Below are positions 24,014 to 61,864 of a stretch of DNA of 64,000 nt, one piece after another (position 1 is the first letter of the stretch; each line of letters starts with the position of its first letter). This DNA comes from Tetracentron sinense (lineage: Eukaryota; Streptophyta; Magnoliopsida; Trochodendrales; Trochodendraceae): the NCBI GenBank assembly GCA_015143295.1, contig CM026574.1:15874938-15938937 (forward strand), read 5' to 3'. The translations under genes and the position numbers were made by a program. Under the pieces are notes generated by a model. It saw only the letters and a list, made by a program, of their open reading frames with translations. It did not search any database and had not been told where the DNA came from.

Positions 24014-24089
24014 GTCGGAGAATGCGAAGTTGGAAATTGAACGACAAAGACTAGAATCACCGTATTTTTACACCAGAGCACGCAAGGTA

Positions 24090-30809: not shown

Positions 30810-33240
30810 TGTGAGCATGGGATTTTCCAACCCACTTTCACAATTATATGTTTTGACTTGAGTCGCCACCTATTCATTCTTAGGGATAGGTCCCGGGTAT
30901 TTGTTTGTTTGGATAAGACAAATGGTCTTTACAGAGTTAGGGTAAGCGGTTCGATTAAGTCCTGGGGAAGGTATTAGGCACCCCAAGACCTCCGTTTTAT
31001 AACGGTTACCTACTCCCTAAACTTAAGCCAATTATAATCTCAAAGTTTAATTAAAATGTCCAAAGTTTTTAAGTGAGTGCTAATCCAAGAAAAATAGAAA
31101 GCTAGATGGCTAGGGTCGAACCCGAGTTGAGTTGCCTACGTACTCACATGGTGAGATCAGACCGAGCGTAGTTCTGGCACATGAGCCCATGCCGAGGCTA
31201 GGGGGGAGTGTGTGTGTGCATAGGATGGTCAAAGGGTCTAGCCTAGAAGGCTATGGTTTAGTTGACCGGGGAGGTCAAGTGCACAAGTGTTAAGTCTAAC
31301 CGCGGTTAGAGGGTATTTATCCATGGTTAGATGAGCTAACCAAAGCTAAGGAGGTCCTACAAGTCTCTTTTTGGTCTTTTTGTATTTTTTATATTTTTTG
31401 AGGTTTTTGGGGATATTTGAATGTTTTTTATATTTTGGTTATATTTGAATGTTTTTGGTGTTTTGAGATTTTATTATGTTTTTGGTATTTTGAGATTTTA
31501 TCATGTTTTTGAATTTTCATATAGGTAAGGTTTTGACAAACTTAACTAAAGTCAAATTTAGTCCAAGAGTTTGGCTAAAAGATTATAGTTTAAGACATAA
31601 AGATGGATGTGCCTTATGAATAGTACATGGTCTATTACCAACACCTATTTTGTTGGATTGATGTTGATAATAGATCAAATACCATTGTCTTTAGTATGAA
31701 ACATTTTTAAGAATGTTCTCTTTAAGTCCTTACACCATCATTTATCTTAAGTCCTTAAACCATCACCTACCCATTCAACATAGAACATGAAGGAAAAATA
31801 AAGAAATGAAAGAAAATGAAAACTCATCCTCTCCCTTTTAAGGTGGTTCATTTACACCATTATTAATTATGTAATGTTGCTCTAAAAAATGTTAGGGAGG
31901 GGATGAGCTTTCACAAAAAATTCTAGAAAGAGGACTAGAATCTCAAAAGAAAACAAAATGAAAAAGAGAGGTATAGCTTTAGCTTCCACTCTCTATGGGC
32001 CTACCCATATCCACACTTGTGGGTACATAAAAAAGAAGAAAATATGTACATGGAAAGGAAAAGAAAAAATGAGCATCTCCTTGCCTTTGATATGGGGTCC
32101 CTCTACACCATTAGATTGGTATAGAGAGGCACAACTATGCTTGAGAAATGAGAGATCAAGAAGAGAGAACCAAATAAAAAAAAAGATAAAAAAGAAGAGA
32201 AAATGAAAGAATGAGTGCCTACTCCTCCAAGAATTCTCCTTCAATGCTCCAAGGGGTAGGGTTTTAGAATCTACAAAGGAAGAGAGTTAGTGAAGAACTC
32301 TAAGCTTTTAGTCTTAGAATTTTTTCCAAACTCTAAACCTTAGTTTCTTCTCCCTTCTTCAAACTCAAGAGAAACACAAGTGGGTGAGAACCTTCTAGGG
32401 GTCTTTAGGGATGGATCTAAGGAACTAAGGGATTGATATTTATAGGAAAACTAAGAGGTTGGGTTGTGTCTTTTACATGGGGGATAAAATGAGCTAGTGG
32501 GTAAAGACTTGAGTGTTGTAAGGTGAGTTGATAGATTGAGTGTTGTAAGGAGTGTAAGAGAGTTGATGGTTGAGTATTGTAAGGGGTGTAAGAGAGGTGT
32601 AAGAGAGTTGGTGGATTGAGTGAACTATGAGTTATATGGGTATGGGTTCTAGGATATAGGGTGTAAGAGAGGTGTAAGAGAGTTGGTGGGTTGAGTGAAC
32701 TATGAGTTATATGGGTATGAGTTGGTGTAAGAGAGGTGTAAGAGAGTTGGTGGGTTGAGTGAACTATGGGTTATATGGGTATAGGTTGTAGGATATAGGG
32801 TAGGTGGATATGGATATATGGATTAGGTCTTATGAATCATGGGTTATTAGTAGATGGGTCATGGATTATGATTATTGGATTTTGACTATGACATTTGGGC
32901 TTGGGCTATGGAAATAGGCTTTGGCTTAGGCAATTGGGTGATTGGATATTTGGGCTTGACCACTTGGGTTGGGTAATGAAATTAGGTAATTGAGTTTGAT
33001 TGAGTTGTTTAGGTATAAGTTTGGTCAAATGGGCTTGGGCCTTGGGTATACCTAGGGCTTATTAGGGTTAGGCTAGGGCTACCTAGGGTTTGGGTTTAGG
33101 ACTACCTAGGGTTAAGCTTAGGTTAACTAGGGTCTTAACTAGGGTTTAATCCTATGGTTAAGGGTTTACCTAGGGTTTGGTTTGGATCATGGCTAAATTA
33201 ATTAACCACGGTTAAGGGGTGTAAAAATAGGGTGCTGACA
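30810..33240 (-). repeat. 5' LTR of the Ogre-like element
   Basis: 2431 bp, nearly identical to 21645-24000. It carries one additional ~65-70-bp minisatellite unit around 32650-32740 (GTGTAAGAGAGGTG, GAGTTGGTGG, TATATGGGTATG). Telomere-like GGGTTTAGG/CCTAGGG wording at 33050-33190 is shared with the other LTR. Confidence 0.9.
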
Positions 33241-36643: not shown

Positions 36644-39600
36644 ATGGATGACCGGAAGGAGGTGAAAACCTCGTTTTCTTTTTGTTTTTCGTCTGCTCTT
36701 TGCTTTCTGCTTTGAATTCTGCTTTATTAGTTCATTTTCTGTGAGGTTTTGTGGTACTGATGGATTTTGAAATGAAATAGGTTAATGATCGCTTGTTTGA
36801 TCTTGAAAATGAGTTTTCTTTTATGTTCTAAAGAGGTTTGAATCTCGATTTTCTTATTATATTTTGTTTGGAGTTCGAGTCCATGCCTCGCGAACTTCAT
36901 TTTGGAGAGATTTGAAGGCTTTCTGACTTTGAAAACAAGTTAAAAATCTGAGTTTTAGGAGTTCATTATGCTGTTCTTTCTCTAAAGTAGCCTTGCTGTA
37001 TCTAACTTCGAGTTTCCATTTTTTTTTTCTTAGCTTGATAACGTTGAGAATCGGCTAACTGTTGCTTAGTCTATAGATCTGCGTGGAGTTTTAAGGCTGG
37101 AAAAAAAAAAATTCAGGATCTTTTTTATTTTTTCGCATCACATCGATCTCAAATTTTGAAATCGTTCTGTTTTTCCATTTGAGAGAATCTAAGAAGCAAA
37201 AACATCATTTTTCTTTTAAAATGGCGAGAATAGGTCGAAGGTGTCACTTTTTAAGGATCATGAGCTGATCAAGTTAATGATCGTCCCATTTTTTTCTCAT
37301 TTCTCATTTCGTTTTCACTCGTATGTAGAAGAATTTGGTTCTTTTTATCTAAAGACAGGAATTTTAAGGCTCATGTTTTTGAAGCCTTTCTCTCTCTACA
37401 GATTTTCTAACTTCGATTTTTTAAAAACAAAGTATTAGATTCATTAATGAAATAGAAATGTGTTTTTAAGTTATGCGGGGGTTTGATTTAATATGTGCAG
37501 AAGAACGCATCGTGGATGTCCGTGCCTCAGTTTGGGGACTGGGACCAGAAGGGAGCCATGCCTGATTACTCCGTGGATTTCTCGAAAATAAGAGAGAATA
37601 GGAAGCAGAACAAGAGGGATATCTCAAGAGCCAGTCTCGGAAATGAAGAAGAGCTCATCTCCAACAACAGAAGCGATAACGATCCTCACCAGCTCCAGCT
37701 TAATGACCACCCAAATCTCCAAAATCACTCTCCAACTGTAAGATTCTCTTTGCTAGCTGGAGCGTTATCAAGTACTTTTCTTTTTCTTTTGTGGAACTTT
37801 ATCTAGCACTTGTATAGCCTACTTTCAATTTCTCAGAATAAGAGCATCAAGCATCTCCAATGTAAGTCTTCAAAATTGTAACGACCCCAAAACCCCACCT
37901 TGGACATAATGAGACTTTGGGTCCGCTATATTACTTATTCCTGCGTAACCTCAATGACAAAAGACATAACTAAAAGATAAATACTCCAAAATGCAACTAT
38001 AAAATTCTTTTAACATAAAAGGTCTTATTCAATATATCATAAACCAATATGTAACGACCCGGAATTTTAATACAATAAAATTATGTGTTTATGGGTCCTT
38101 AATGGAGGTTAATTAGTTAATTATTTGTTAAATTAATAAAAAGTGAACTTTGCTCGAGATTGAAGTGCACCGAGGAAATCTCAGTATCGTTTAGCGAAAT
38201 TCGCACACAGTGTGTCGGTCGACTGCCGGGACACACCCCTATCGTATCGGTTCCGTCATGTACCATTTCACGGGACCGCGGGGCCATTATGTGTGATAAA
38301 ATTGAGAAAAACAGGAACTTTTCATACTTCCAGAAATTAAGTGGGACCCAATATTTGTTAGAGATCCTAATAGAAATCCGTGCGTGCGTTGACACTAATG
38401 CGTGTCAGTCGGCCGTGGGGACTAATGTCTGTCGTCTCGGCAGTTATTTATCTCAAACGAAGAAACGGCAGCCTATTTTGTATTTGAAATAAGGAAATTA
38501 GTGGGTTTTGCAATTTTCTTCCGGACTAAAGTGTAGCTGTCAGAACTCAGTATTTTTCCCCGAAATTTTTACAGTATGTGTCGGACTGCTCCAAGCTCGG
38601 TCACCTAAAGTTTCGTCAAAATCGGATGTCATTAAGTAGGATTACGGAGGCCGTATATGCGAGAAAATACGGAATAATAGTCAAATGGTCAACCCGTTGA
38701 CTTGGTCAACGGGGACCATTAATGGTGGTCATGTGCATGGCACATGACCCTTGCATTATAAATAGGGGGCAGCCCCTTTTAATCTCACGGTTTTGCAACA
38801 GTGAGAGATTTCTGCCACAACAGATTTTAGAGAGAGAAAGTGAGGAGAGAGAAAGAGGAGAGAGAAAGAAGAGAGAAGTGGGTCCTTGAGGTTTTTCGAC
38901 GTCCTCGACTCGTTGGCGGCGTCCGTTTTTCTCTCCGGCGTCTCGTTTTGCGTGTAGAGAGAGAAAAAAAGGTAGAGAGAGAAAGTGGTGAGAGAAAGTT
39001 GCATGCGCTCTACCCCGGGGTTGATCGTCGTTGGGAACGCGTTGGTGACATCCGTTTTTGCCTACGAGGCCTCGAAACGCGTGAAACAGTAAACCCCTCT
39101 CTTTTCTTCTCTTTTTTCCGCTTATTTTGTTATATTATTTCATGTGATGTTTATGCATGTCTTTTGACGTGAATGAAAAAGGGGCGGAACCCCTATGTGA
39201 TGTTGTGATTTTATGTGGTCCCTCGGGAAGCCCAGATCGGGTCCCAGGTAAATTGTATCGCCACTCTAGGGTGACGAAAAATTGTTTTGCATGTCTTTTA
39301 AGGCTATGGAGACATCCATTAGCTTGAAAACGCTCCCTAATGGGACGGTGTGTTACTGGAGTTAGTTCACGGGCGCAAGGCCCAAATATTTCAGTTAATC
39401 AAGCGAGGCTTGAGTTAACTGGGGTTAACCTGTGGCTAGAAAATCTAACTAGGGTTAAGTATAGTCCGTGGTTCCTCTTTGACTAGGTCAGGAGAGACGG
39501 TGTCCAGCATGGCCCGGCGTTCCTCCGTGACTGATAGTCGGGAGATGTCGGTCTGTTTGTCTAGGACGTCCGTGGTGCCTCTTGGACTAGGTCAGGAGTG

Positions 39601-42600
39601 GCGGTGTCCTGCATGGCCCGTGGTTCCTCCGTGACTGGTAGTCAGGAGATGTCGGAGTCCAAGGGAGTTTAAAGTGGCTAAACATCAGATAGTGTATAGT
39701 CCGGGGTTCCTCTCTGGGTGGGTTAGAAGATGTCGGCACCGTGTCTATCGGGATCCCTTCTTGGTGGAACGTCAGGAGATGTCGGCATTGGTATAGATGT
39801 CGGGGTTCATCCGTAGACTAGCCAGAAGATGACGGTAGGCAGGTTGGTCGGGGTTCCTTCATAATTGATACCCAGGGCGATGGCGGCGAATACACGGTAG
39901 ATGTGGCCAGTCAATTGAATGGAAAAATGTTCTTATTGGGTGAATGCTCATGTTGTGTGTGTAAGCTTCAGATACGAAATGGTCTGAATTAGTATACTCA
40001 GGGTTAATGTATTTGTCTGAGTTGGTGGACTCATGGTTCGGTATGGAATCATCGGATTCCAGGTGAGTTGGGTTGGTATACCCAAGGTTTGGTCATGTTC
40101 AGGTGAAAGCCGGAACAACGTGTGTGAATCTAAATGAATCAATGTATTATGGTTATGATTTAGAGATTTTAAGCTAAACATTTGTGGGCTGTGGCCAATT
40201 AATAGAGTCTTAGGACTCGAAATGAAACATGATTGATGATCGAAACGATAATTTGGTAATATAATACATTCATAACTGAACCTCATAATTAGAAAGTAAT
40301 GTGAGGTCGGGAACCTCTGTTAGGTGACGTAACCCTAAGTGACCTTAGGTCACAATTTATTATATACTGTTCTATTTTACTGTAACATGCAAATTGAACT
40401 GCTTATTATATCATTATTGATGCGTGTTATTATGTGAAAAATAGTTTAAAAGGATTGTGGTTTTATTGGGTTTCATAGCTCACTGACTTTTTGTGTCAGC
40501 AGATCTTAGAGCTGCTGACTAGTAAGTGAAAAATCTATCTGGATATTTTGGAAGCTTGTACAAGTTGTACATGGCGTGATAGAGACGCCTACTTTTGTAA
40601 AAAAAACTTGATGTAAATAATACAGGTATATGGTTTGTATGATGGCTATTGTGATGACAGATATTATTTGCTTTTTGGGAGCATCTGATAAATGTTTAAA
40701 TTTCCCGTATTTTTGCGGGTAAAGTCTTCCGCTTGCATGATTTGACGAACGGACACGCGTCTCGGAACTTGATTCCCTAGGCGCGGGTTCGGGGCGTCAC
40801 ACAATATATGTCCAAATCCATAAACATGAACTAAAGCAACATCTACCATAAAAGCCTCAAGTCTAATACAAATTCTCTCCCAATAAAACTGATTTGAAAA
40901 GAAACTAATAATACGGGGACTGGTCAAGGTTCTAACCACCCTCAACGAAGGGATCACCTTCCATTTCTGCTTCTTCTTGATAGGCTTCCTCAACCCACGG
41001 TGCACCTGCAAACTGGTGCACCTGCAAACTCTTGACTCTAAACCTGAAGACAATAACAGGTCGACTGAGCCTTGAAACGCTCAGCAGATATCCAATCTAA
41101 CTAATAGTAGTAATAATATATGTACATGCTCAATATCCATTTCATGCGAAAATTACGTAATCAATAACAATTCCTTATAACCTGTACATAATCAGAGTAC
41201 GGAAACATGTGAGCATACCCTGACATCATCTTGACTCGTGTACTTGTGTGACTCTTGGACTTATAGTATGAATTTCATGCATGCTTGTTTTCCCATAAAA
41301 TAATAATTGAAGTCTTTGTATTAAACCAAGTCCCTAGAGTTTTTAGATACCAAATGTCCATGATAATTATCCAGGACTTGAAATCTTATCCATCGAGAGC
41401 ATCAACGATTACCGGAGCTATTTGAGATATCAGGGTCCTTGTAAAATCATGTAGTGTTCTTGTACTTTTTCTTGGTACTCATATACTTGTATTTCAATGT
41501 CCAGTGTTTAGTGTCCATGCAATGTCTGTGTCATGTTGGTGTACACGGGAGACTTGTAATCTATCACACATGTGAACTTGTGCTTAAGTGTCGTGATTAA
41601 TATCCGAACTCGGTCATTGCCTAGATTTCCATCTTCTGGCTAATAAATTCTGCTAGGTTATATCTCCCTAGTTAGAGAATTCTTGACGTGGAAGACTTCC
41701 TTTAGGCTTTGGCTTATCCGAATGTCAATCACCATGTAGTATAGATATGATATAATTTATCATGACATGCATTTATATCTCTTGAACATACTTAAACAAT
41801 TTCAATAACATCATTTTTACATTTTACAATTCAAAGCATTCATATTAATATATCTAATCCATTATCCGTGAACCATTGCCTTTCCTACATTATTCTCACT
41901 CTTATCATCTCTTCATATCCATCCACAAAACCATAACCATACAATCAAAACTCATCTATTATCATTTCCCTTTCTCCACAAATCATATCCATACCATTCA
42001 ACTCATCCATTATCATTTACATATATCCAATTCAATATAAACATCATCACATACTTTAATATAATATTAATTCCCTTTATCACGTTTCACAAAATCACCA
42101 AATATATTTAATAACTCATTTTAAATCTCAAGCATAGTAATCAACTCATTTTCATAATGAACATTCGTTCATTTAATAATCTTATCTAATCATGTAAAAT
42201 CATACAATAGATCAATAATTGAGTTAGATTAGAAGGGATATCAACCTTTGAGATTTTCCCCTTAGATCCAAATCGCTGGATGAAGCTTCTTGAAGCTTCA
42301 GGGTTGATCTCCAAGCTAATCTTCTTCTCCCTTGAGTAATTTCTTCCTCTTCAAGCTAAAATCCTTTTGAAAACCTAGGATTTTCTCTCATCTTTTGCTA
42401 AATTTGGTTAGAAATTAGAGCTTAAAACCTTTGAATTAGAAGTGCTATTTATAGCCTAAGAGTTTAAAACCCTGATTTTCGTAACTCTTTTAAAAACCTG
42501 AATCGCGATTTGCCATCGATCGTCATATTGGGCGATCGATTGTTGTTCGTCTGGAGATCGATCATCGCATCAGTTGCGATCGATCGTCTAAGAAACCGAA

Positions 42601-45600
42601 GCTTCCCAAATTTTCTGGTTCTGGACGATCGATCGTCACATTAGTGCGATCGATCGTCACATTAGTGCGATCGATCATTGCACAAAACAGGGGCTTACCC
42701 AAATTTAAGGTTCTGAGAGATCGATCGTTCTCATGCGATCGATCACAGACTCTGATTTTTCACCCTCTTAACACTTAAACATTTAAATCATTCTACATCG
42801 CTTAGATATAATTAAAATATGCCAAAAAACATAACAAAAGATCAAATTTTCCTTATTAAACAAGATAGATCAGGAAAATCAGATTTGGGTCTCCACAAAA
42901 ATGCATATCCAAAATGACATCTTCTTCAAATTTGGAGATGTTGGTCCCTCTAAAAAGTTTTTTCAACTCCAATCCACCCCCTCTCCAAAACACTATTCAG
43001 TCTCTAAATCGCTATCCATTTTTTTTTAATTCTCCACTTTTCCTTCCAAACTTAACTAGTCACCACTTTTCATCCAAAATTAAATAATTCATCCATAAAA
43101 TTGTCACTATTGATTAAAAATAAATAATTCAGTGTTCGACATGAACAGATTAAAAAGAACACTGTTTAAGTTTGCATCTTTTAATTAAAAAAATTGTCAA
43201 AAATACATTAAAACAAGACTAGTGAAATCACAAACATTAGTTTAAAAAAAAAAATTAAAAGCGTTAATAAGGTGGTAAGTCATCTTCCCCGTATCCCCTT
43301 TGATACTGGCTAACTGAAATCACCGTGACTAAAGGTAGCCGATGATCTACCTACTTGGGAATCACGAGAATTTGTCTACAATTTCTAATTTCTCACCTAA
43401 AAAATATTCATGTTCGATTGGAATGCTTATAGAATTAAGGTATTTTTCCATAAAATCTCGCTTGCCTTTCACGTTGAAGCTGTGATTAGTCAAACTCATT
43501 TTTAGCTTGTAACATCATGATATTGTAACGTATGGTTGCATTATTATTCATTTGAGTAAACCATTCTTTCCTTTTTATTTCTCCTCTTTTCCAAGTTTCA
43601 AGGATTGCACGATTTTTTTCGAACATACCAACAATGAGCTAACTCTTGTTAGCTGTTAGCCTCTTTCTCATCTTTTTTTTTCCTTCCCATAGGGTGACTA
43701 GAAGAATCAATGAACACTTCGATTGGCGTTCGCTTATCTTCAACTACATTCAAGTTAACAAATAATGACGTTTTCGGAGATTTGGATGTAGGAGTCATCG
43801 TTTAAGACCTTTCAGAGTACTCAAATCTTTGTCGTTGTTGGGGTATAACATTAGCTCACTTCTCGGCATCCTTAAGGATGAGTTACAAATGATCAAATAA
43901 AAACCCTTTTTTTCTCATCCAGATCTCGGCAAATAAGACTTTGGCATTACTCAACTACAAATTATACAAAAGAAGTCGATTCTTTTTTAAAAAAAAATAG
44001 TCGAGCAAGTATAAAATTGCATTTTTTTATAACTAATTGAATAAATACTTACAATATCTAACTTAGAAGCACAATTTGGATTAAGATTTTTGAGTTGATG
44101 AATGCATCCCCGAAATTTGTTGATGACCTTCATAATCGAATACATACGACATTAGATTGACTTCGGTGTTCGAGATGCTTAGCCATAGTTGAGTACGACT
44201 TTCAAAAATTTCAAAAATATGCTCTATAATCTATCTTTTTTTCGATTGACCCCGAATATGAGATCTTGAGAAATCTCAAACCATGCGTTACATAGGATCT
44301 TGTCTTCTTTAATTGAAAATGATCGATCACGAATCGGGGACTTTGCACTGGAACTTAATCCAATCGACTGAGATAAATTTATGATGACATTTCTATAAAG
44401 AGGTTGAATGCAAAAGAAGATTATAGTATTGAAAGAGAAAAAGTTGTGATTTTATAAGAGAAATATATCACTATTTATAGAGTATTTATTGTGAATTGTG
44501 TTGATAAATCCAATGATTAAAATGAGTTGTCCTTTACATCCAATGGTTATCATTAGAAGTTATGAGTTTTTTAAGTCTTGTGTTTGATGGATAAGACTTG
44601 TCAAAGATGTGTTGAATAAAGTGTAATTACAAGTTGACAATCCTATGGTGGAGATTTGTCTACTTTATAACCAATGGTTAGCATGAGAAGTTATGCGTTT
44701 CTTAAGTCTTGTATTTGATGGACAAGACTTGTCAAAGATTCATTTGATAGAGTATAACAATAAGTTGAGAATCTTATAGTGGAGATATCTTCTATTTTAT
44801 ATTTAATGATGGAGATGTGTTCTACGAATTTTTTTTTTGTCATTAATTCTCTCATATAACGTCAACACATCATAAACTCTACTTCACTATGTTACTCACC
44901 CAAATTTGTTGTAACTCTCTCACAGTCATCTTGAGCAATGAGTTCCAGAATATGCTAATCTCATCTGCTATTTTCAAATTTTGAAGACTTAACATATTTC
45001 TCTATCACATTCCCCTAATTATATAGCAGAAATAACAGAGTGAGAGGAGGAACACGCATTGTTAATTGGTTGATGTCCCAAACAACAACTTAATAGCTCA
45101 CTCTCTCGAATAGGATGATCAACCGAAACATAGAAGCTTAGTTCCTAGATAGGTTATACTCCACCGAGGGAGGGAAGAAGGTCATCTTCGATTATAGAAT
45201 AACTACTTTTCCGAAAATTCCATGTTTGGAGAAAAATTATTTCGTATACCATTTTCAATGTGCTATTCCTCTGTATTGTCGACGCAGTCAAAGATCATGA
45301 CAATTCTTTCATACAAAAGAAAGATGATATTGATAGACTTGGATTATCTACTTTGTAAAAAGTAATTGATGTGTTTCGAATATTGGCGTATGAAGTATCG
45401 ACAAATTCCACCGATGAATACGTAAGAATTGGCGAAAGAAAGTGAGATCAATATGTAACAATTCTTACGTATTCATCAATGGAATTTGTCGATGCTCCAT
45501 ATGTCAATATTCAAAACACAACTGTTTCTTTTTTACAAAGTAGACAATCCAAGTCTACCAATATCATATTTCTTTCGTCAATTCTTACGTATTCATTGGT

Positions 45601-48600
45601 GAAATCTATCGATGCTTCATACGCCAATATTCGAAACACAACCGTTACTTTTTGTGAAGTAGACAATCCAAGTCTACCAATACCATCTTTCTTTTGCATG
45701 AAAGAATTGTCATGACCTTTGATTGCGCTGACACTACGGAATAATAGACTTCGTATTCAGAATCGTTTACGAAATAAAATTTCTCCAAACATGAGATTTT
45801 CGAAAAAATAGTCATTCGATAATCAAAGATGACCTTCCGTCCTACAGTGGAGTACTGTATGTCCAGGAATCGAGTCTCTACGTTTCGGTTTATCGTCCTC
45901 TTCGAGAGAGTGAGCTATTAAGATGTTGTTGGAGAAATATGTTCATCTTTGGAATTTGAAGACGGTAAATGAGATTGGCCTGCTTTGGAACTCATTGCTC
46001 AAGATGAATGTGAGAGAATTCCAATAAATTTGGGTGAGAGTAAGATGGTGAAGTAGAGTTGATGATGTGTTAGACAATTTTTTTTTGAAACTTTATAAGA
46101 GAGAAATCGATGATGAGAAATAATTTCGTTGAACACCTCCACTTGTGGTTACACTCTATCCAACACATCTTTGATAAGTCTTGTCGATAAGACAAGAAAC
46201 TAATAAATTTCCATGTTAACCATTAGATATAAAGTAGAAGACATCTCCACCATAGGATTCTCAACTACTCTATCCAATGGATCTTTGGTAAGTCTTGTCC
46301 ATCGAACACAAGACTTAAGAAACCCATAATTTTTCATGCTAACCATTGGATATAAAATAGAAGACATTTCCACCATAGGATTTTCAACTTGTGGTTACAC
46401 TCTATCTCATACATGTTTGACAAGTCTTGTCCATCAAGAACAAGACTTAAGAAACGTATAACTTCTCATACTAACCATTGGATGTTAAGTACAATTCATT
46501 TTAACTATCGGATTCATCAATACAATCTACAACAAATACTCTATAAATAGTGACATCTTTCTCCTCCAAAATCACAATTATTTCTCTTTCAATACTATAA
46601 TTTTCTTTTGTATCCAACCTTTCTATAGAAATTTCATCAAACATGAATTTCCCTTAGTTGGTTGGACAAAGTTCCGGTGTAAAGTCTACGATTCGTGGTC
46701 GATCATTCTCAAGTGAAAAAGACAAGATCCTATGGTTAGTATGAGAAGTTATACGTTTCTCAAGTGACTTGACATTTCCCAAGATCCCATATCCCGGGCC
46801 AATAAAAATTGATAGATTATGGGAGCATATTTTTGAAAGTCGTAGGCCTAACTGTGGCCAAACGCTTTGAATACTGAAGTCTCTCCAATGTCGTATGTGT
46901 TCGATTATGAAGGCCATCAACACATTTCGGGGATGCGTTCGTCAAGTCGAAAATCTTAATCCAAGTGGTGCTTCTGAGTTGGATATTGTAAGTATTTATT
47001 CAATTAATTATGAGAAATACAATTCTATACTTACTCGACTATTTTTTTATTAAAAAAAATTGACTTTTTTTTATACTATTTGTATCATTTGTTGCCTATC
47101 TTTAAGGATGCCGAGAAATGAACTAATGACATTTCCTAACAATGACAATGGTTTGAGTACTTTGAAGGTTCTCAAACAGGGACTCCTACATCCAAATCTC
47201 TATGAATGCCATCATCCGTTAACTTAAATGCAGATGAAGATGAGTAAACGCCAATCGAAGTGCATATTGATTCTTCTAGTCGCCCTATGAGAAGGAAAAA
47301 AGAAGAGATGAGAAAGAGGCTAGCAACTAATAAGAGTGAAGATCTGCGGGTGGTGCTAGGATGGTGTCCTTGAGGGAGAGTTGTAGGTTAGGTGTAAGGT
47401 AGTTCTTGGTTTCAGTGTTTTGTGAGTTTATTACCTTGTAAACTCTCTTGGCTTGCTTTGCTCTTGTATCCTGCTCTTCTTTTTATAAAATTGCTTTACT
47501 GATAAAAAAAAAACTGACGAGTGAGCTCATTGCTGGTTTGTTCAAGGAAAATCATGCAATCATTGGGACTTGAAAAAGAGGAGAAATAAAAAAGAATGAA
47601 CGATTTGCTCAAATGGATAAAGATGCGATTATGCGTTACAATGTCATGATGTTACAAGCTAAAAATGAGAGTAACAAGTTACAACTTTAACGTGAAAGAC
47701 GAGAGATTTTATGGAGAAAAATTTTAATGCTATAAGCGATCTAGTCAAATGTGAATATTTTTTAGGCAAAAAATTGAAAATTGTAGAAAAAAGGACTCAT
47801 GATTCCCAAGTAGGTGGATCATCTGTTACCTTTAATCACAGTAATTTCAGTAGCTTTAATCAGTATCAAGGTGGATACGGGGGAGATGACTTACCACCTT
47901 ACTAACGCTTGTAATTTGTTTTTGTTAAACTAGTGTTTGTGATTTCACTAGTCTTGTTTTAATGTATTTATGTTAATGTTTTTAATTAAAAGATGGAAAC
48001 TTAACTATTCTTCTTTTTAATTTGCTAATGTCGAACAATGAATTATTTATTTTTAATCAATATTGACAATTTTATGGGTGAATTATTGAGTTTTGGAGGA
48101 AAAGTGATGAATAATTTAGTTTGGGAGGAAAAGTGGGGAAAAAAGCACATGAGTTCTTTTTAAAAAAATGAATAGTGAATTGGAGATTGAATAGTGTTTT
48201 AGAGACGGAGTGAGTTGAAGTTAAAAAACTTTTTAGTGGGGCCCAACATCTCCAAATTTGGAGAAGATGCCATTTTGAAGACTTGCGTTGGAGATGCTCT
48301 AATAGAGTAGTATCAGGTGGGTGCTAGTCTCATTCAGCTCTTATTGCACTATCCCCTTTTTGGGTCAACAAGACTAAGATTTTGTATCATATGTGGGGCC
48401 TACCACAAAAATCCTTGTGCTCCATAAAAAAAGGAAGAAAGCAATAAGAGAGTGTGCTAGCAAAATCCGGTTATTATTTGTGGTGAGTGCTTAAAAGAAT
48501 ATGATTAGTAGCTTGCACGTGGTAGGGTGGTGGGAGTGAATGAAACTTGGCAAAGCCAGGTTACATAGGACCAATAGCACGTTCACACGTTAGAAAAAAA

Positions 48601-51600
48601 TATGAAGTTTTTTTAAAATGTGCATATTTAATATTTTTCTAATGTGTCTGGTATGCTATTAGTCCTTTGTAACTCTACTATAAATTGTTGCCAAGTTTCA
48701 CTCTATAGGAGTGCCTGCGGTGATAGGTGTAGTGGGTCTAGATCTTTATCAGGTAGTAAAATGTGATGGAGATGTAGGCCGAACAAACAAGATTCACTAC
48801 GAGAGGGTGGCTACAAAAGACCTAAACCCTAAACCAAGCTTTCTTTTTGGGTGTCATGTCAGCATTTTTTAAAATCTAAGAAGGGAGGAGTTAATGCTAA
48901 TTTGTTGTAGTGGGAAGAGTTTTTTTATGGTTGTTTTCATTATTAGGGTTTGAACCTTAACACTATCCTAAAACACCATTCTCGCTCTAACATGTTAGCA
49001 TTAACTCCTTAGGATTCATGTTTCCCTCCATAAGTTTTAGAAAATGCTGACGTGACTCCCAAAAAATAAGCTAGGTTTAAGGTTGAACCAACCCGAGCTC
49101 AGTTCAGCTTGATCAAACTCAAGCTAAACCAAGTTTTTTTTTTGGTGTCTCCATAAGTTTTAGAAAATACTGACGCGACTTCCAAAAAACAAGCTAGGTA
49201 TAAGGTTGGGCCAACCCGAGCTTGGCTTGACTTTAATTAAGTTCAAGCTCGATCAAGCTTGTTCAAACCTGAACACCCGAGTTCAAATCAAGCTTAAGCT
49301 AAGCCCAAATTGAATTAGAGCATGTTCAAGCCAAGCTCAAACTTGGCCAAGCTCGGTTTTGCTCGGCTCGAATACAGGTCTAGGGAGTACCATTAGCATT
49401 CCCTTTCCTCTTCCTTATTTGTAGTGGCCATTATGCGACCTTGGGATCAGTTGTTAGTGTTAGGGAGTGAGGATTTGTTGGTAGTGTTAGTGTTAGAAAG
49501 TGGAGTGAGTCATCATGCCACATCACCACTGGAACTTTCATCTATCTAGTGAGAGTTGTATCCATTGCTTCAAATTCGAATTTGACAATTAGGGGGTTTC
49601 AATTGATCCTTTCCGGAGAATTAGATTGTCATGTCAGTCTTGAACTAGTTGTTGCTTCTCCAATTGTTGCTTTTCCATGGAAAGGTTCTAGGGTCTCATC
49701 GTAATGTGATGGGAACCAACTTTATTGATAATGCTTAATGATCACAATGAGATAGATTGTTGAAAACTCTCAATCTGGAATGATAATCATTAGAATCCTA
49801 ATCTATTCAAGAAACCTATCTAAGATTGTTATTGAGATACAATGAGAATGATACAGTATATCTCTTCACTTTATTACAAGAGATTTTAATTCCCTAATGC
49901 TCTCTCTCAAACACATGTGGATTGTAAGATCTTCATAAGTTTGACAAAAATCATAGCCTGGCTATCGTTGTTAGATCTCCATTGCATGTGTTGATGCCGC
50001 CTGGATGTGGTAGAACCGAGATAGAGCATGGATGAGCCTCTTATGGGCTGAGGAAAAAAAATAGAAAATAAAAAGAGAAAAGACTATGGCCAAAGGTAAA
50101 GAATGTAGCCTCTAGCGAGCCAGAGATGAGGGCCCTAATGGGCCACATAAGGGGCCTCTAATGGGCCAAGGACTGTGCCTCTAATCGGCCAAACATGTGG
50201 AGCTTCAATGGGCTGAATGAAAGAAAGGGCCTCTAAAGGCTAGCGCAAGTGGGCCTCTAGGTCAGGAGAAGTCGGACCTCTGCGAGCCAAAAGGAAGAGC
50301 TTCTAATTGGGCAAACATGGACCTCTATGGGCATAAAGAAAAGAAGACTGCAGTGGGGTCTATCTAGGCCAAAAAGGAAGTTTGGTGGTAGGCTGGAATG
50401 ATGAAAGCATAGAAGATAGCATATTAGATGTGCATGCGAATTTGAAATACACTAACAACTTGTAAAGGTGGAAGAACAACGTAACAATAAAAGAGAGAAG
50501 GTAAAGATAAGGTTTAAGGTAGGACTATGTAATGGCTCAAAATCTAGTGCGCTAAGATTAAGATTGGATTAACAATAACAACGAAAATCATAAAATAGCA
50601 ATCCTATCACAAATATCTAGTCAATAAAATTAAAGAGAGCAAATTTTAAGGATTCAGGCCACATCACAAACTTATAATACGGCCCTAGTTATATATGGAG
50701 GATTGTATGGAAGTCCATGCTTCCACAAGTTTAGGGATTAGCTCTTAATTCAATGCAGATTTTCTAATCCTTTCCGGGGTTTCAAAGGTTGAAGGATTTT
50801 GGTCTTGGGATTTTAATTTTTAGGGTTTTGGAAATTCGATGTAATAAGGTTTGGAATTGAATGAGGGTTTAGGGGTATAACTATTCTAGGGTTTTGCAAT
50901 GGCAGGAAATCTGTAATAGCAGTTGGGACTGCATTATGGCTGGGGTATGGAGGCTGTAACTGCAAACAAATTAGGGAAAAGGCTTTGGCAATCGAGGGAC
51001 AAGTTTGGGGAAGGTAGATAGGGCTGGGATAGTTTAAGAATATGGGTGTAGGCTTGTGGCAGCAACTAGGGATGGGACTAGGGTTTGCGACAATGCTTGA
51101 CAGGGCTGGGAATGGCTTTAGGTGGCTGCGGCAATCAAGGTCAGCAGGGGCTAGTGCAACTGGTGGCAGAGTTGGGAGGTGGAAAAAATGGGTGACAGCA
51201 AGGAGAATTGCAGAGGGGCTGTGGCTGAGGGGAAACTGCAGGAGGGACCTGCGGCTGAGAGGAATCTGCAGGGGAAAGGTTGTGGGTGGTTGCGGAAGTC
51301 AAGGTATTAAACTTCGGCTTCAGTATAAACTTCGGTTGTTAAAGAAGTTCACTCAATTCGAGGAAGTTTAAGGAAGTGTGAGGAAGTTATATAAAAATTA
51401 AAGAAGTATAGGAAACTTTTAGGAAACATTGGAATTTTAAGATGAAACTTTAGATATTCAATATTTAGGCATAAATACACATGTAGAATTCATTATATTA
51501 CTAGATGCAAGTTTGTAGAGTATCAAATGTGTGAATCATATTAGGTGATATGTGATGTCTGTTTGTTTATGCTGTAATTTCTTTTTGATATTTCTCTATA

Positions 51601-54600
51601 ATGTCAAATTTTTCTAACTATATTATATTCTCTTTATTAAGTGAAGGGAATATGTAAGGATATTTAAGTAATATTGAGTGAATTTTATATATTATTTTTT
51701 GGTAAAATAAGTTATATTATTTTGAAGATGTTATTATGTATATTGTTTAAAATTATTAGCTATTAATAATAGTAATATAACATTATTAAAATTTAGAACT
51801 GATATTAATTTATGAAATACTATTAATAAACTATTTAATTTTTTTTAGTATTACCAAAAAAGCCTTATTAGCATAATCATATTATATGAATATTAAGTGA
51901 AAAGAAAAAATACATGTAAAAATATTATTAGAATAATAAAATAACAATTTATAAATATAATAAAATTAATATTAGCAATACTATGAATGGATCACAACAT
52001 GTCTTTCCTTAAAACAAGGAGATTGAATCACAACCAATTATGTTGAACAATATAATTTTAGAGAGTTCAATCGTATCCACAGGCCAACACGTGTCTATTT
52101 TATCCCATATTAATCGTGGTTAAGATTCATTAGTCCGTGGGGTTCAACAATATAACTTTGGTTTTTGTAAAAAAATACTATAAAAATATTTAACTCTGGT
52201 TAGGAATTATAAACCCTTGTGGTTAAATTTTTTTTTTACCAATACCAATTTATATTATTGAACCCCAAGGGTTAGTGAATCTTAACCACGGTTAATAGGT
52301 ACATGTAGTGCCTGTGGGTGTGATTGAACTCTCCTCGAGTTCAATCGCAATTGGTTGTGATCCAATCTAATGATGGTTTAGAGCTAAGTAGCTTACGACT
52401 TACCATTTGTTGGGTGCTCAAGAAACAAAAAGAAGATGGGAGTGGTAATAGCATTACCCATACCCTTTTAATACTTAAGTTAAAATGTTAAAACCCAAAC
52501 CTAATTCTTCTCATTCACGAAATGGAAATGGAAATGGGAGAGGGAGAATGAGAGAAGTAGAAAAAACTTAGGGTTTGGCTCCTTGCAAGCGGCGATGGTG
52601 GTGGCGACGACGATGGCAGGTGATAGAAAACTAGATTTCTATTCCTTTAGGTTAGTATCGCCTAAACCTATTCCTCCTCAAATTCCTCTTCCGAGTGCTG
52701 CTCTCTCTCTCTCTCTCTTTTTGTAGGTCTATCATTCTTTTTCTTTTGGTTAGTGGGACTGATTTCAGTCTGCAAATCTCTCAGAACTCAAAAATGTAAA
52801 TTTTCAATTTTTTTTAAACGTTTCTGTAGACTTCGGTGAACTTCCACTGAAATTAAGTAATTTTTCTAATAAAATTTTCGGTTTCGATCGAAGTTAACCG
52901 AATTTTACCGAAGTTAACCGAATTGAGTCGATTTTTAACACCTTGGCGGCAGTGGAGAAGATGGCTAGGGTTTCAATGGATTAGGGTTAGGGGTTAGGTT
53001 GGTTAGGATTTTCAATAAATAATAGAAAAATAGAAAAGAACAATGGAGAACTGAGAGAAAATAGAACATACCTTAGACTTTTGAGAATCACTTCAATGGC
53101 ATCACACTAAACTCCAATGACATCACACCAAGTCCAATTACCGGAGAATGCTCAAAAGTTTTTTTTTCATTCATAAAATCAACTTAACTAAAATTTAGTG
53201 CTAAGGAGGGGTTAAAATAGGTTTAAACCCTAATTGTCAAATTAATGAAAAGACTAAAATACCATAGTAATGAAAAGACTAAAATGAGTGCAAATCTTCT
53301 AGTCGGTCTCTAATATCAAAATTGGTATTCCTATTAGGGGCCACCTACCCAATGAAATTTGTCCACCTCAAAAGCCCTCTTACATGCTCATTTAATGCTT
53401 TCAGCTCAAACAAAGGGCAGATAAGTAAAATACTTAATGCCCTTTTGTCTTCATATACGTATCTCCCTACTTCCTACTTCGCCTGTAGCCCAACCTTTGT
53501 TAATAAATTACTTTTAATGCCATTTTTTATTCTCATATCCCTTATCTCTCCACTTATGCTTATAGCCCAATGTTCTTTCTCTTGAACTATGGTTAATAAA
53601 ATTTAGCCCCGATGATTAATTTTTTTAATCTTTCCCTAAAACTCAATGTTAGATGCTTTAACCCTAAAGGTTATTGAATCTTAACCATAATTAAAGAGAG
53701 TTAAAAGGGGAGATGTTAATTTTTAATTTTTTTTTTTCTAAAAACCAAGGTTAGATGCGTTAAACCCTAAGGGTTAGTGAATCTTAACCATAGTTAAAGA
53801 GAGTTAAAAGGGACACGTTAATTTTTTTAAATACCAAGGTTAGATTCTGTAACTCTTAAGGGTTAGTGAACCCTAAACAAAGTTAATGGGAGTTAAAAGT
53901 CGGTTAAATTTTGATAATTTTTTTCCTAAAAACCAAGGTTAGATGCTTTAACCCGAAGGATTAGTTGATCTTAACCACAATTAAAGCGAGTTCAAAGGGG
54001 ACATGTTACATTTTAATTTTTTAAAAAAACCATGGTTAAATGCTTTAATCCTAAGGTTTAGTAAACCTTAACCACGGTTAAAAGGACTTAAAAGACACGT
54101 TAAAGGGAGTTAAAAAGGGACAAGTTAATATTTTTTCTAAAAACCAAGGTAAGATGCTCTAACCCTAAGGGTTAATGAATCTTAACCACCGTTAAAGGGA
54201 GTTAAATGGGGACACATTAATTTTTGGGTGGTGTTTGGCGCATCTCACTATTTACTTATTACACCCCAAGCTTAAAACAAAAGAGAATAAAATTTTCAAT
54301 TATGCCTAAAAAATATTTATAAGACAGAAATGTCCTGTCTCTTCTTCTTGAAGACTCCAACTAATGGCCCTACAACCCCTCTTACTCCGGCAAAGCCCTG
54401 ACAACCCTCTCACTTCGGCAAAGCTCCAGCAACCTTGTCACTCCAGCAAAGCCCCGTCCACGCTCTCCTCTTCCTTCTTCATGTCATCTTTGACCAACTA
54501 ATTCTCTAGCAATATCAACAAAAACATAAACCCTAATATCTATCTCATTACAATCAAACCCCTTCTATGACCTCTCATTACTTCCTTTTTAAAATCCTAG

Positions 54601-57235
54601 CGGGGATTTTAGGATCATGCCTTTGTTTGGAATTCTTTCTGAAACATGCTTTGATGATGTGCTTTAATTTGGAGAGAATGGTCTCTTTGATAACCAAAGA
54701 ATCATCTGCCCTAAGATTTAAAAGGGAAAAAATGATGTTGATGATTAGATCGACCAATACATGGATTTGGGTTTTTACACTCGCAATATGAATTTCGAAC
54801 TTCTCATCCATCTGTTGTCCCATGGTTCATGGATGGGTACTCCTCGATTTACAATAGCGCAAAACGTCATGTAGATAGTTGAAAGCTTGCAATCGTCTAG
54901 AACTAGGGCTATCAATAAGCGATCAGAATACACCCGCTGGTATGCTAAATGGTTGACCGGAAGAAGATAAAAATAACAAAGGGGTTATCGGGCAGCCATT
55001 TCGGTTCTTAAGCTTCTGTATAAATGTTTTAGTTGGAGACTACAAGACGAAGAAGATGGGCAATATCGTAATTGCACTTTTTGTTTTATGCATACTGAAA
55101 TTTTTAATTAGTTTTTTAAATTCTGGGGGTGCAATCATCATATTTTGAGGTGCGCGTAGCTCCACCCTAATTTTTTTCTCTTAAAAACCAAGGTTAGATG
55201 CTTTAACACTAAGGGTTAGTGTATCTTAACCACAGTTAAAAGAGTACACATTAATTTTTTTATAAACCAAGGTTAGATGCATTATCCCTAAGGGTTTGAA
55301 TCTTAATCATAGTTAAAAGGAGTTAAAATGGGACAAATTAACCACAAGGGTTAAAACTTTTTAACCATAGTTCAAGGGAATTTAAAGGCTTGTAAGGTGA
55401 TAAAGTATCTTAAGGGCATAATTGTCATTTTACTAACAATAACAACCGAAAGTGTTAACAAAACTTAGGGTTGAGGTTGTTTGTCTAACGGTTGCAAACC
55501 CATGAGTTAATTTGCAAAACTGTTCCACATGATAGTGTATTTGCAAAGTAGGTAGAACAAAGCAGGTAGAACGACGAAGCTGATATGCAAAAACCCCTCA
55601 AGTAATTTACTAACAAAGGTTGGGCTATAGGTGTAAGTAGGAAGATACGGATATGAAGACAAAAGGGCATTAGGGACTGACTAGAAGATTTGTACTCGAC
55701 TAAAATAACCAAACTAATGAAAAAACTAAAATAACCACACCAATGGAAAGATTAAAATAACTAGACTAAATCATATGGTAAATCAGCCTATGTGAACACC
55801 TTCCTATTGTGGGGTCTTCCTAATGAACCATGTGTGCACATGAGGTTTTTAATGGCCCAAATTATCACTCCAAAGTGACATGTGAGCCTTATACTTTTTC
55901 CTCTTCGTAAACCTAAAACTCCTCATGATGCTGGATTTCTGCATCAAGGTTTCAAATGGCAAAGATGTTGGCTTCCAAAGGCTGTTTCTGCAGTTTTGGG
56001 CTTTGGAGACTGGAGAATGTGGGAGAACGTTCTCTGGTTACAAGGAAAGAAGCTATAAAGACAAGGACAAAGTCAAGAGAAAAGAACATTGAGGGATAGA
56101 GGGATTAAAATAGCAGTTTGGAAGCAATGAAGCAGTAACTTAGAGGACAAAGACTGGGGCGATTATGAATGTTTCCACAGAAGGTCACATCTTCACCATC
56201 CCAACTTTTAGAGGGGCATGTGCCTCTTTCCTCTTTCTTGTGCAAGGGTTTGTTGAAAAGACAAGTGGAAGGTTCTTGATTAATGAAGTAGAGATAGGAT
56301 CCTTTCTATTGTTCTAAATACAATAGAGACCCCAATACTTCATAGAGCCATAAGAAGATTTGGGCCTATCAAGCATAAGATAATGGTGGGGAGGCCATAC
56401 AATTTTTTTTTTTGGTAAGTTCATGAGCTGCCTTATTACATTTTCTGGGATTGTACTTGGAACTTAAAACAACAAGAGGAAAAATCTCCCGGGAGCTAAG
56501 TTTAAGCGTGTCCAACACCACCTTCGTGCATCACACTGGTGTTTTCATGATGTCCGGTGCCAGCATCTTGGCAAAAGGAGCTTCTGCCAAAGAGCCACTG
56601 TTCTGTTTGAATAGCTGGTATTTCCCGAATTTGATTTGTCTCTGCTGCACAATGATCACCACCATCATTCCAAGTTACAATTATCACTGTAGCTTTAGAG
56701 TCAGGTTTTTGCTTCCATGATCCATCCATGTTAATTTTGTACCTGCCTTGGTTTCCAGTTTCTAATCATTCCATTAACCAAAAAAACTGCCTTTAGAGTC
56801 CCATTGACTTTTTTTTTTTTTTTATCCTTGTTGAGGTTGAAATCAAAATATGCAATTGGAAAGAAACTAAATTTCTCTCTGTAGTTTAAATGTTGTTATA
56901 AATTTAAAACTGATATACAAATACAAAAAATGAATAAAATTAGGGAGAGCCGATAGAGATAGAGTCAAATTTGCTGATGGAAGCAGTAGTTTGAAATATT
57001 GAATCAGGCCAAATGTAATTTTATGTGTTGGCAATCATATTTTTCTTCTGCTTTTAGAATTTTATGCGTTGGCAATCATATTTTTCTTCTGCTTTTAGAA
57101 TCATTCATTCTATTGAACTTTAGAAAATCAGCAGTGATTTGTTTTTTCTGATTTTAACATTATAGTGGTGAATTTTCTCTTTGGCAGACAAGGAGGAGCT
57201 TTCTCAGCTGCTTCAGCTGTTGTGTAAAAGCCTAA
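36644..57235 (+). CDS. RIN4-like/NOI-family protein with a 19.45-kb second intron
   Basis: Exons: 36644-36661 (MDDRKE), 37501-37737 (79 codons) and 57188-57235 (15 codons plus TAA), with GT..AG introns in phase 0, giving 100 residues. Residues 8-20 read NASWMSVPQFGDW. VPQFGDW is the conserved NOI/AvrRpt2-cleavage-site type motif of RIN4 proteins, followed by DYSVDFSKIRENRKQNKRD and ASLGNEEE. Exon 3 encodes TRRSFLSCFSCCVKA, the Cys-rich tail usual in this family and likely acylated for plasma-membrane attachment (inference). RIN4 proteins are negative regulators of immune signalling and targets of bacterial effectors; this short one has a single NOI motif. The reading phase and the tail support the distant exon 3 despite the intron of nested transposons. 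No transcript data are available, so the join is inference. Confidence 0.82.
38050..40801 (+). mobile_element. 2.75-kb solo LTR nested in the LTR insertion
   Basis: It begins TGTAACGACCCGG and ends GGTTCGGGGCGTCACA, flanked by perfect CAATA duplications (38045-38049 and 40802-40806). It contains a TATA box at 38757, a GAGAGAGA-rich leader at 38829-38995, GTCGG-rich repeats at 39480-39900 and no protein-coding content. Size and ends fit a long gypsy LTR, probably reduced by LTR-LTR recombination. The lineage is not assigned. Confidence 0.85.
38757..38766 (+). promoter_or_regulatory. TATA box of the solo LTR
   Basis: TATAAATAGG lies about 710 bp into the solo LTR, where a U3/R promoter is expected, in the same orientation as the RIN4-like gene. 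Activity is unknown. Confidence 0.5.
42515..42745. repeat. Cluster of nine ATCGAT sites in degenerate repeats
   Basis: GCGATCGATCGTC-like words recur nine times in about 230 bp, twice as adjacent copies of GCGATCGATCGTCACATTA near 42640 and 42660. They lie within the LTR-type insertion. Function is unknown. Confidence 0.7.
43262..44375 (-). pseudogene. Harbinger ORF1-like remnant, left arm
   Basis: The minus strand from about 44370 reads SIGLSSSAKSPIRDRSFSIK, EDKILCNAWFEISQDLIFGV and NRKK, the Myb/trihelix-type opening of PIF/Harbinger ORF1 proteins (also annotated in plants as glutathione S-transferase T3-like). Downstream text includes FRGC-like and NPSG-region wording and, near 43400, a C-terminal part similar to the right-arm copy. 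Frames are interrupted by stops and frameshifts. ORF1 normally assists the transposase in binding DNA; this copy is dead. Confidence 0.65.
45465..45710. repeat. ~120-bp tandem duplication beside the palindrome centre
   Basis: AATTCTTACGTATTCAT..GG followed by GA(A/T)..(A/T)TCGATGCT and CAATATTC(A/G)AAACACAAC occurs at about 45463-45570 and again at 45579-45690. An inverse copy lies at 45330-45440. So this segment is present three times around the centre of the foldback, one inverted and two direct. Confidence 0.8.
46640..47905 (+). pseudogene. Harbinger ORF1-like remnant, right arm
   Basis: The plus strand reads LVGQSSGVKSTIRGRSFSSE, then KDKIL, later LQCRMCSIMKAINTFRGCVR and QVENLNPSGASELDIV, typical ORF1/GST-T3-like wording. 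It ends with an open 64-codon stretch (47711-47905) finishing SFNQYQGGYGGDDLPPY. Frameshifts and stops separate the blocks. It is the inverse counterpart of 43262-44375. Between the ORF1 start and the centre (46145-46490) lie three ~125-bp tandem units containing AAGTCTTGTCCATC. Confidence 0.7.
48535..48703. mobile_element. Short foldback MITE
   Basis: Arms share TGAAACTTGGCAA at the left and TTGCCAAGTTTCA at the right, then GGACCAATAGC and inverse GCTATTAGTCC, around an AT-rich centre. No clear target duplication. It lies in intron 2 of the RIN4-like gene. Confidence 0.7.
48849..49060. mobile_element. Foldback MITE with GGGTGTCATGTCAGC ends
   Basis: The left end GGGTGTCATGTCAGCATTTT is mirrored by right AAAATGCTGACGTGACTCCC. 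GGAGTTAATGCTAA is mirrored by TTAGCATTAACTCC nearer the centre. The right end plus adjacent sequence is repeated directly at about 49150-49225 (CCATAAGTTTTAGAAAAT, CCCAACCCGAGC region). Confidence 0.75.
49080..49385. mobile_element. AAGCTTG/CGAGCTC-rich hAT-like fragment
   Basis: Simple words such as CAACCCGAGCTTGGCTTGA and CAAGCTTG recur with short inverse matches, ending TCGGCTCGAATACAGGTCTAGGG. Composition matches the intron-1 hAT MITE, but no intact ends or target duplication were found. Confidence 0.35.
50080..50350. repeat. Degenerate ~30-bp repeats with GGCCTCTAATGGGCC
   Basis: The words GCCTCTA(A)TGGGCCA, CCTCTAATCGGCC and GGGCCTCTAAAGGC recur about every 25-35 bp, eight or more times, with strong divergence. 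Frames are not open. The surrounding 49400-51990 contains no recognised gene; a Gly/Arg-rich ORF at 51042-51371 is low complexity. Confidence 0.6.
52019..52368. mobile_element. Foldback MITE, TTAACCATAGTTAA family
   Basis: Left AGATTGAATCACAACCAATT is mirrored by right AATTGGTTGTGATCCAATCT. Inner blocks GAGTTCAATCG..CCACAGG and TTAATCGTGGTTAAGATTCA are mirrored in the right half. It is the same family as 61523-61864. No coding content. Confidence 0.75.
53585..54217. repeat. ~110-125-bp tandem array
   Basis: Five to six units read CTAAAAACCAAGGTTAGATG, CTTTAACCCTAAGGGTTAGT, GAATCTTAACCA(T/C)(A/G)GTTAA, AGGGAGTTAAAAGGGGACA, ending in a T-rich run. The array continues after the hAT insertion at 55180-55390 with two more units. 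Confidence 0.85.
54226..55167. mobile_element. 942-bp hAT-type element splitting the tandem array
   Basis: Flanked by the perfect 8-bp duplication TAATTTTT (54218-54225 and 55168-55175). The ends are imperfect inverted repeats: left GGGTGGTGTTTGGCGCATCTCA, right TGAGGTGCGCGTAGCTCCACCC. Interior direct repeats contain CCGGCAAAGCCC/CCAGCAAAGCCCC at 54385-54455. No transposase was recognised. Because the flank is T-rich, the duplication is strong but not absolute evidence. Confidence 0.75.
56420..56758 (-). pseudogene. RNase H-like (RVT_3) remnant
   Basis: Minus-strand reading begins GRYKINMDGSWKQKPDSKAT, with the Asp of the KxNxDGSW motif, passes NDGGDHCAAETNQIREIPAI, shifts frame, and ends YNPRKCNKAAHELT, which is the usual C-terminal RNase H phrase of non-LTR retrotransposons and their cellular relatives. 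Frameshifts and a stop show it is dead. It lies about 430 bp upstream of the last RIN4-like exon, on the opposite strand. Confidence 0.65.
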
Positions 57236-61522: not shown

Positions 61523-61864
61523 GAGATCGAATCACAGCCAATCGCAATTGAATTCAGGGAGAGTTCAATCGCATCCACAGGTCAACACATGTCCCCTTTA
61601 ACCTCCATTAATCATGGTTAAGATTCTCTAACCCTTACTATTCAATAATCTAACCTTAGTTTTTTGAAAAAAATATTAATCCTAAGAGTAAAAAATTCTT
61701 AACCAGAGTTTCATTTTATTTTTGAAAAACTAAAGTTAGATTATTGAACACTAAGGCTAGAGAATCTTAACCATAGTTAATAGGGGTTAAAGGGGACACG
61801 TGTTGACCTGTGGGTGAGATTGAACTCCCAGAATTCAATCACGATTGGCTGTGATTCAATCTCA
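61523..61864. mobile_element. Long-armed foldback MITE with 8-9-bp target duplication
   Basis: AATGCCAA at 61515-61522 and 61865-61872 flanks it; a 9-bp reading would have one mismatch. Arms of over 130 bp mirror each other: GAATCACAGCCAATCG, CCACAGGTCAACAC, GTCCCCTTTAACC, TGGTTAAGATTCTCTA, TTCAATAATCTAAC. The AT-rich centre is about 70 bp. It is hAT or Mutator type; duplication length cannot decide. Confidence 0.85.

Follow-up and report, generated by a model that had tools for sequence, protein, structure and literature searches.

Positions 37842-48299 of the window (64,000 nucleotides of Tetracentron sinense DNA, C24:15874938-15938937 of a 1.16-Gb genome) probably hold an old fold-back element, non-autonomous and derived by inverted duplication from a PIF/Harbinger transposon, that is now decaying in intron 2 of a RIN4-like gene with a single NOI domain. 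An earlier note on this DNA had placed a Harbinger inverted repeat at 42912-48299 and proposed it as a hairpin source of small RNAs. The inverse arms are there, and the right end is exactly 48299, with TAA next to it. The left end had been misplaced; it lies at 37842, about 5 kb outside the interval first given. The parts of the element are as follows.

37842-48299, no strand: entire fold-back PIF/Harbinger derivative with nested insertions; target-site duplication (TSD) TAA at 37839-37841 and 48300-48302
37842-37876, plus strand: left outer terminal inverted repeat (TIR), GAGCATC and then a 7-bp near-duplicate, recognized by comparison to the right end and the TIRs of relatives
37877-42897, no strand: nested insertion A, long terminal repeat (LTR)-like, with TG...CA ends and TSD AAAAT, interrupting the left TIR region
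38050-40801, no strand: insertion B, likewise LTR-like and 2,752 bp long, nested within A, with TG...CA ends and TSD CAATA
42903-45441, minus strand: left arm, with remains of open reading frame 1 (ORF1) at 44409-43267 (minus) and the 5' part of ORF2 at 44862-45436 (plus), located by tblastn with the relatives' frames
44532-44786, no strand: left-arm tandem repeats of about 130 bp from the inter-ORF region
45442-45578, no strand: junction, consisting of about 17 bp of sequence, R1 (45459-45575) and 3 bp
45579-48299, plus strand: right arm, with ORF1 remains at 46625-47902 (plus) and the 5' part of ORF2 at 46070-45556 (minus), located by tblastn with the relatives' frames
46144-46514, no strand: right-arm tandem repeats of 123-132 bp from the inter-ORF region
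47339-47520 (approximate limits), no strand: insertion of about 185 bp in the right arm only, with an A-run near its end, located from the arm alignment gaps and the sequence; possibly a short retroelement

GAGCATC termini are present at both ends of the element; the left one carries the 7-bp near-duplicate. The TAA duplication is single and flanks the whole fold-back element. The left TIR stands apart from its arm because the 5.0-kb insertion A splits them, and relatives carry the same left-end sequence in unbroken order. Insertion B lies in A, and A lies in the fold-back element; therefore, three insertion layers are stacked in one intron. For A and B, the designation as LTR-like comes from their ends and target duplications.

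PIF/Harbinger elements are marked by a 3-bp TTA/TAA target duplication, short TIRs, an ORF1 protein (Myb/SANT, NAM-associated), and a DDE transposase. The element in the window has the 3-bp TAA duplication, the TIRs of the family, and ORF1 remains in both arms. Together with the PF04827 and PF14303 matches in the relatives' frames, these features support the Harbinger identity; the two ORF1 copies that had been proposed are present as decayed remains detectable by tblastn. In both arms, ORF1 faces outward and the start of ORF2 faces inward. The match of the arms to the L021 frame stops by residue 85, and the PF04827 match in that frame starts at residue 100. No catalytic part of the DDE transposase is found in the arms, which carry the ORF2 start only. 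Therefore, the element is a derivative and not an autonomous PIF/Harbinger member.

The element was compared with 16 relatives from the same genome (L009-L024), the best 16 of 38 other scored places. The TIR GAGCATCTCCA is flanked by TAA or TTA at 22 of its 24 matches in these relatives, the exceptions being both L024 matches. Long relatives with a TIR match at each end measure 4.0-4.8 kb (L009, 3963-7980; L013, 3820-8017; L015, 3910-8709; L018, 3850-8299), and in the long copies ORF1 and ORF2 run divergently, separated by tandem repeats. Frames of the relatives have matches to PF04827 (Plant_tran, E 1.4e-79), which we take to belong with PIF/Harbinger, and to the NAM-associated PF14303; a match to Myb/SANT PF13837 falls under its curated cut-off. 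Past the inner end of the arm, six of the eight compared relatives have a further 1.5-1.6 kb in common, which terminates in a second TIR in five of the six and is interrupted there by another GAGCATC element in L021. The outward ORF1, the ORF2 reduced to its start, and this extra 1.5-1.6 kb up to a second TIR in the relatives therefore point to an inverted duplication of one end. The element resembles the PIF/Harbinger elements of the same genome in its TIR with TAA/TTA flanks, its ORF1/ORF2 sequence, and its tandem inter-ORF repeats, but differs from their single-copy layout: a fold-back of the arm region is found in 0 of the 16 relatives, in each of which the arm matches are one-stranded. 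The inverted repeats that the relatives do contain (up to eight per locus) are other, shorter ones. The outermost 138 bp of the element has 38 other matches outside it among the 40 scored of 130 candidates. Shorter family members, with 1.2-1.7 kb between TIR matches, also occur (L012, L014, L016, and L024, the last of which lacks TAA/TTA flanks).

The inverse arms align as 42910-45441 against 45459-48277. The short spacer described in the earlier note is not a simple one, as it contains R1, an extra copy of the inner 117 bp of the right arm with 84.6% identity. The arms proper join somewhere between about 45436 and 45579. The extra copy suggests that repair at the junction was messy. A junction query (45250-45760) yields at least 29 matches, three of which are the window's own (one over all 511 bases and two from the window paired with itself). 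The other 26 end at query base 187 or start at 325 or 330, one being shorter within those limits. Among 14 scored candidates, with counts that are lower bounds, no match spans the junction except the window itself.

The two arms are 83.1% identical with a first aligner (1979 of 2382 aligned sites; 285 transitions, 118 transversions, 28 gap openings, Kimura two-parameter distance 0.197) and 84.1% identical with a second aligner and slightly refined ends (1997 of 2375 sites). The identity is uniform along the arms (79-88% per 200-column bin). Four gaps are at least 25 bases long: two reflect sequence confined to the right arm (185 and 70 bases) and two reflect sequence confined to the left (63 and 77 bases). 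In the arm-arm alignment, the longest Watson-Crick run is 36, or 48 when G:U is included. Of the 2,535 left-arm 21-mers, only 44 can pair without mismatch with the opposite arm; for 24-mers the figure is 22 of 2,532. The mismatch of 16-17% between the arms and the small number of perfect 21-mers weigh against a working silencer. By its predicted fold, the arm duplex would be long but imperfect.

The arms appear to be old. Eleven of the 16 relatives could be aligned with them; L012, L014, L016, L017, and L024 are too short for the analyses of identity, tree, shared states, pairing bias, and deamination. On gap-free site pairs, the two arms agree with each other at 82.4% of sites in the inner part and 83.6% in the outer part. 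Arm identity to L009 is 82.7-85.7%, that to L010 is 84.8-85.5% (outer part only), and that to all 11 aligned relatives is 79.5-85.7%. The divergence between the arms is therefore about equal to their divergence from the nearest relatives. In a tree of 13 rows and 2,217 columns, the branch that unites the arms has a length of 0.0055, and the tip lengths are 0.117 for the left arm and 0.096 for the right arm. The tips of L013, L015, L019, and L021 are 0.012-0.030 long; the remaining tips are intermediate, and that of L020 (0.101) exceeds the right arm's. Some family copies are clearly younger than the arms, indicating that the family multiplied after the arm split. Judged from these sequences, the arms diverged close to the root of the family as sampled, and other copies expanded later.

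The host gene encloses the element.

36644-57235, plus strand: RIN4-like gene with a single NOI domain; coding sequence (CDS) exons 36644-36661, 37501-37737, and 57188-57235, 100 codons plus stop, all introns GT-AG
37738-57187, plus strand: intron 2, 19,450 nt, containing the whole element

The spliced CDS is uninterrupted and encodes one NOI domain (PF05627, E 1.7e-5) and a protein that ends in CCVKA. In a paralogue (L032), both the NOI exon (exon 2) and the last exon have counterparts, separated by about 3 kb. With E values of 10 or less, a genome search with PF05627 gives 29 matches. RIN4 proper has two NOI domains; on C24 there is a single PF05627 match, in this 100-codon one-NOI CDS, and the gene is therefore a RIN4-like/NOI gene and not a two-NOI RIN4. 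The position of the repeat within a RIN4-like gene, as given in the earlier note, is supported, the repeat lying in a long intron. The intact CDS suggests that the gene is transcribed. In PMC9514647, the functions of the 14 Arabidopsis RIN4-like/NOI proteins besides RIN4 are stated as unknown, and a later abstract (PMC10869442) assigns an immunity role to two two-NOI members. To call the present single-NOI gene an immune regulator is an extrapolation.

The element probably arose from a parent with divergent ORF1 and ORF2 and tandem repeats between them, which would have broken within the 5' part of ORF2, the retained half then being joined to a second copy of itself in inverse orientation. The outcome would be an ORF1-side TIR at both ends and loss of the catalytic part. 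The pre-mRNA of the gene would cross both arms and could fold to an imperfect hairpin with arms of about 2.5 kb, which may supply some Dicer products locally, before or during splicing of the intron. Today, the locus is most likely a silenced relic in decay that affects other copies little if at all.

Several results weigh against the reading of a decayed inverted duplication. The sisterhood of the arms expected from one duplication is weakly supported in the 13-row tree (23/57). The pairing capacity is considerable: 90.6% of aligned arm sites pair when G:U is counted with Watson-Crick pairs (second aligner), and a 5,407-nt RNA is predicted to form a single hairpin at -2883 kcal/mol, in which 2,129 pairs join the two arms and 169 do not, so that folding from end to end is predicted as had been proposed. 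The inverse arms greatly exceed what chance would give, as four shuffles give -1178 to -1227 kcal/mol and four other equal-length stretches of the window -1226 to -1457 kcal/mol; the shuffles were made with a custom script that swaps segments between identical letters and keeps dinucleotides. Therefore, the locus cannot be called dead. In addition, the CHH-to-CG deamination ratios of the arms (0.88 and 0.72) are the highest of 13 copies, the other 11 having 0.18-0.66, a pattern that earlier CHH methylation would produce.

The weak support in the tree leaves some room for another origin, in which two distinct copies of the element came to lie head to head, by independent insertions or by recombination, instead of one inverted duplication. 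The arms are no more similar to each other than to L009 and L010, and there is no excess of states shared by the arms exclusively: 7 columns, against 8 for the right arm with L011, 7 for the left arm with L011, and 7 for the right arm with L009. The approximately unbiased test adds nothing here, since the free tree already joins the two arms. Four deletions are exclusive to the arm pair, although the left arm and L011 likewise have four in common. The tree and the shared states, as far as these sequences go, give no discrimination between one inverted duplication and two meeting copies. However, L, R1, and R2 stop at almost the same ORF2 position, the outer TIRs are all ORF1-side, and one TAA duplication serves for the whole. 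The shared breakpoint and the single TSD therefore favor one event, and we regard a meeting of two copies as unlikely.

The inverted duplication could also matter for silencing, as in the Mu killer locus of maize: read-through from the RIN4-like promoter would yield a hairpin, Dicer-like cutting would follow, and the small RNAs would silence Harbinger ORF1/ORF2 in trans. The position in a host-gene intron and the strong predicted fold agree with such a role, as does the architecture shared with Mu killer, in which both TIRs come from one end and part of an element gene is duplicated in inverse orientation (PMC3440606). We asked whether the arms bear marks of it. Selection for pairing was considered from an excess of G:U over A:C in the arm-arm alignments (163:122, p = 0.018, and 154:111, p = 0.0097) and is not upheld. 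On the multiple alignment the ratio is 130:104 (p = 0.10), polarised changes give 141:133 (p = 0.67), and some pairs that never fold together have a like excess (left arm with L009, 130:108, and with L011, 124:101; with L013, 122:127, there is none). Because the excess is lost on the multiple alignment and on polarisation and is present in some never-folding pairs, pairing-specific selection is not supported.

CHH deamination affects 80 of 475 sites in one arm and 61 of 454 in the other. The CHH rate is higher in the arms than in L009 and L011 (141/929 versus 88/888, p = 0.0009), with CG unchanged (p = 0.55) and p = 0.15 for CHG, and the CHH:CG counts differ from those of the other 11 copies (141:25 versus 289:99, p = 0.007), but the same contrast with the four older copies L009, L010, L011, and L020 (133:39) gives p = 0.095. 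Since the outcome varies with the copies compared, CHH deamination as a footprint of past RNA-directed methylation is only suggestive; saturation of CG sites in old copies can yield the same contrast. Taking each of the 16 relatives singly, between 2 and 75 perfect 21-mers are shared with the left arm and between 10 and 136 with the right arm, and those to the young copies L013 and L015 are few (38 and 36 positions in the left arm, 55 and 61 in the right). With up to two mismatches, 17-35% of arm 21-mers, sampled every seventh base, match the four tested relatives, which, like the raised CHH deamination, speaks for the silencing reading. Small-RNA production from the arms is possible on the predicted fold, but trans-silencing of relatives by the arms looks weak from the sequences.

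A trans-silencing role is made less likely by the decay of the arms and the later spread of the family. Moreover, read-through transcripts from the gene flanking Mu killer are reported also in plants that fail to silence (PMC3440606). Taken with the arm mismatch and the few perfect 21-mers to young copies, we consider such a role very unlikely. The fuller version, in which expression of an immune-family gene feeds transposon silencing from a Mu-killer-like PIF/Harbinger locus under the RIN4-like promoter and leaves the CHH deamination of the arms as its footprint, is extremely unlikely. An effect on the host gene is somewhat less unlikely. The silenced element might alter how the RIN4-like transcript is spliced or where it is polyadenylated, as is reported for Arabidopsis transposons within introns, the hairpin being incidental; the 19.45-kb intron with its nested transposons fits this, and the heterochromatic state of intronic transposons in A. 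thaliana is described as critical to proper transcription in PMC4417168. The CDS and splice sites are intact, however, and we hold such an effect to be rather improbable. A silenced, decaying inverted duplication accounts better for the locus.

A Harbinger fold-back hairpin locus is not named among the listed titles and abstract openings of open-licence papers on hairpin or inverted-repeat small interfering RNA loci, Harbinger, and fold-back elements. MITEs (miniature inverted-repeat transposable elements) are typically a few hundred bp long. Those derived from Harbinger are likewise palindromic, Harbinger-ended, and foldable as RNA, whereas the present arms are about 2.6 kb long and contain gene remains. 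In maize, fewer than half of the annotated PIF-Harbinger elements, but still thousands, have miRNA-like structures according to PMC10760457; therefore, folding alone is not special. Like Mu killer, the element is partly duplicated in inverse orientation and has two ends derived from the same side, but near identity to the targets, which in Mu killer extends to mudrA as well, is not found in the comparison of the arms with the 11 aligned relatives and their 21-mers. PMC8224964 states such near identity for TIRB in Mu killer and describes its transcript as forming a hairpin that is cut to 21-22-nt RNAs. PMC3440606 describes two mudrA-side TIRs and two partial mudrA copies of maize MuDR in inverse order, and uses the transcripts to argue against a read-through model of Mu killer. 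Both loci are inverted partial duplications of class II elements with same-end TIRs, associated with a host gene and with a proposed long hairpin RNA (PMC3440606 and PMC8224964). The present one differs in its superfamily, its position within an intron, its diverged arms, and in being known from sequence alone.

Elsewhere in the window, a direct repeat of 2.4 kb, 95% identical (21645-24000 and 30810-33240), encloses a gag match at 28881-29723 (minus); the two copies are probably the LTRs of one retrotransposon. A tandem array of about 1.9 kb with a spacing of about 43 bp lies between them (24084-25950). Short MITE-like self-palindromes occur at 61523-61863 (82%), 52020-52368 (68%), and 1184-1419 (85%). 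A 112-aa open frame at 62955-63290 (minus) matches Myb_DNA-bind_3 (5.1e-26), a domain that occurs also in transposon ORF1 proteins. ABC transporter domain matches (PF00005) are located at 7142-7633 and 10427-11380 (minus). Rfam and tRNA scans of the window give zero matches.

Natural inverted duplications of transposable elements are proposed triggers of heritable silencing, with Mu killer as the worked case in the sources cited here. The present fold-back has the Mu killer layout but belongs to another superfamily and lies within an intron of an intact gene; having decayed for long, it illustrates the appearance that such a locus may take on with age. The locus is a concrete place to ask whether arms with 16% mismatch still give small RNAs.

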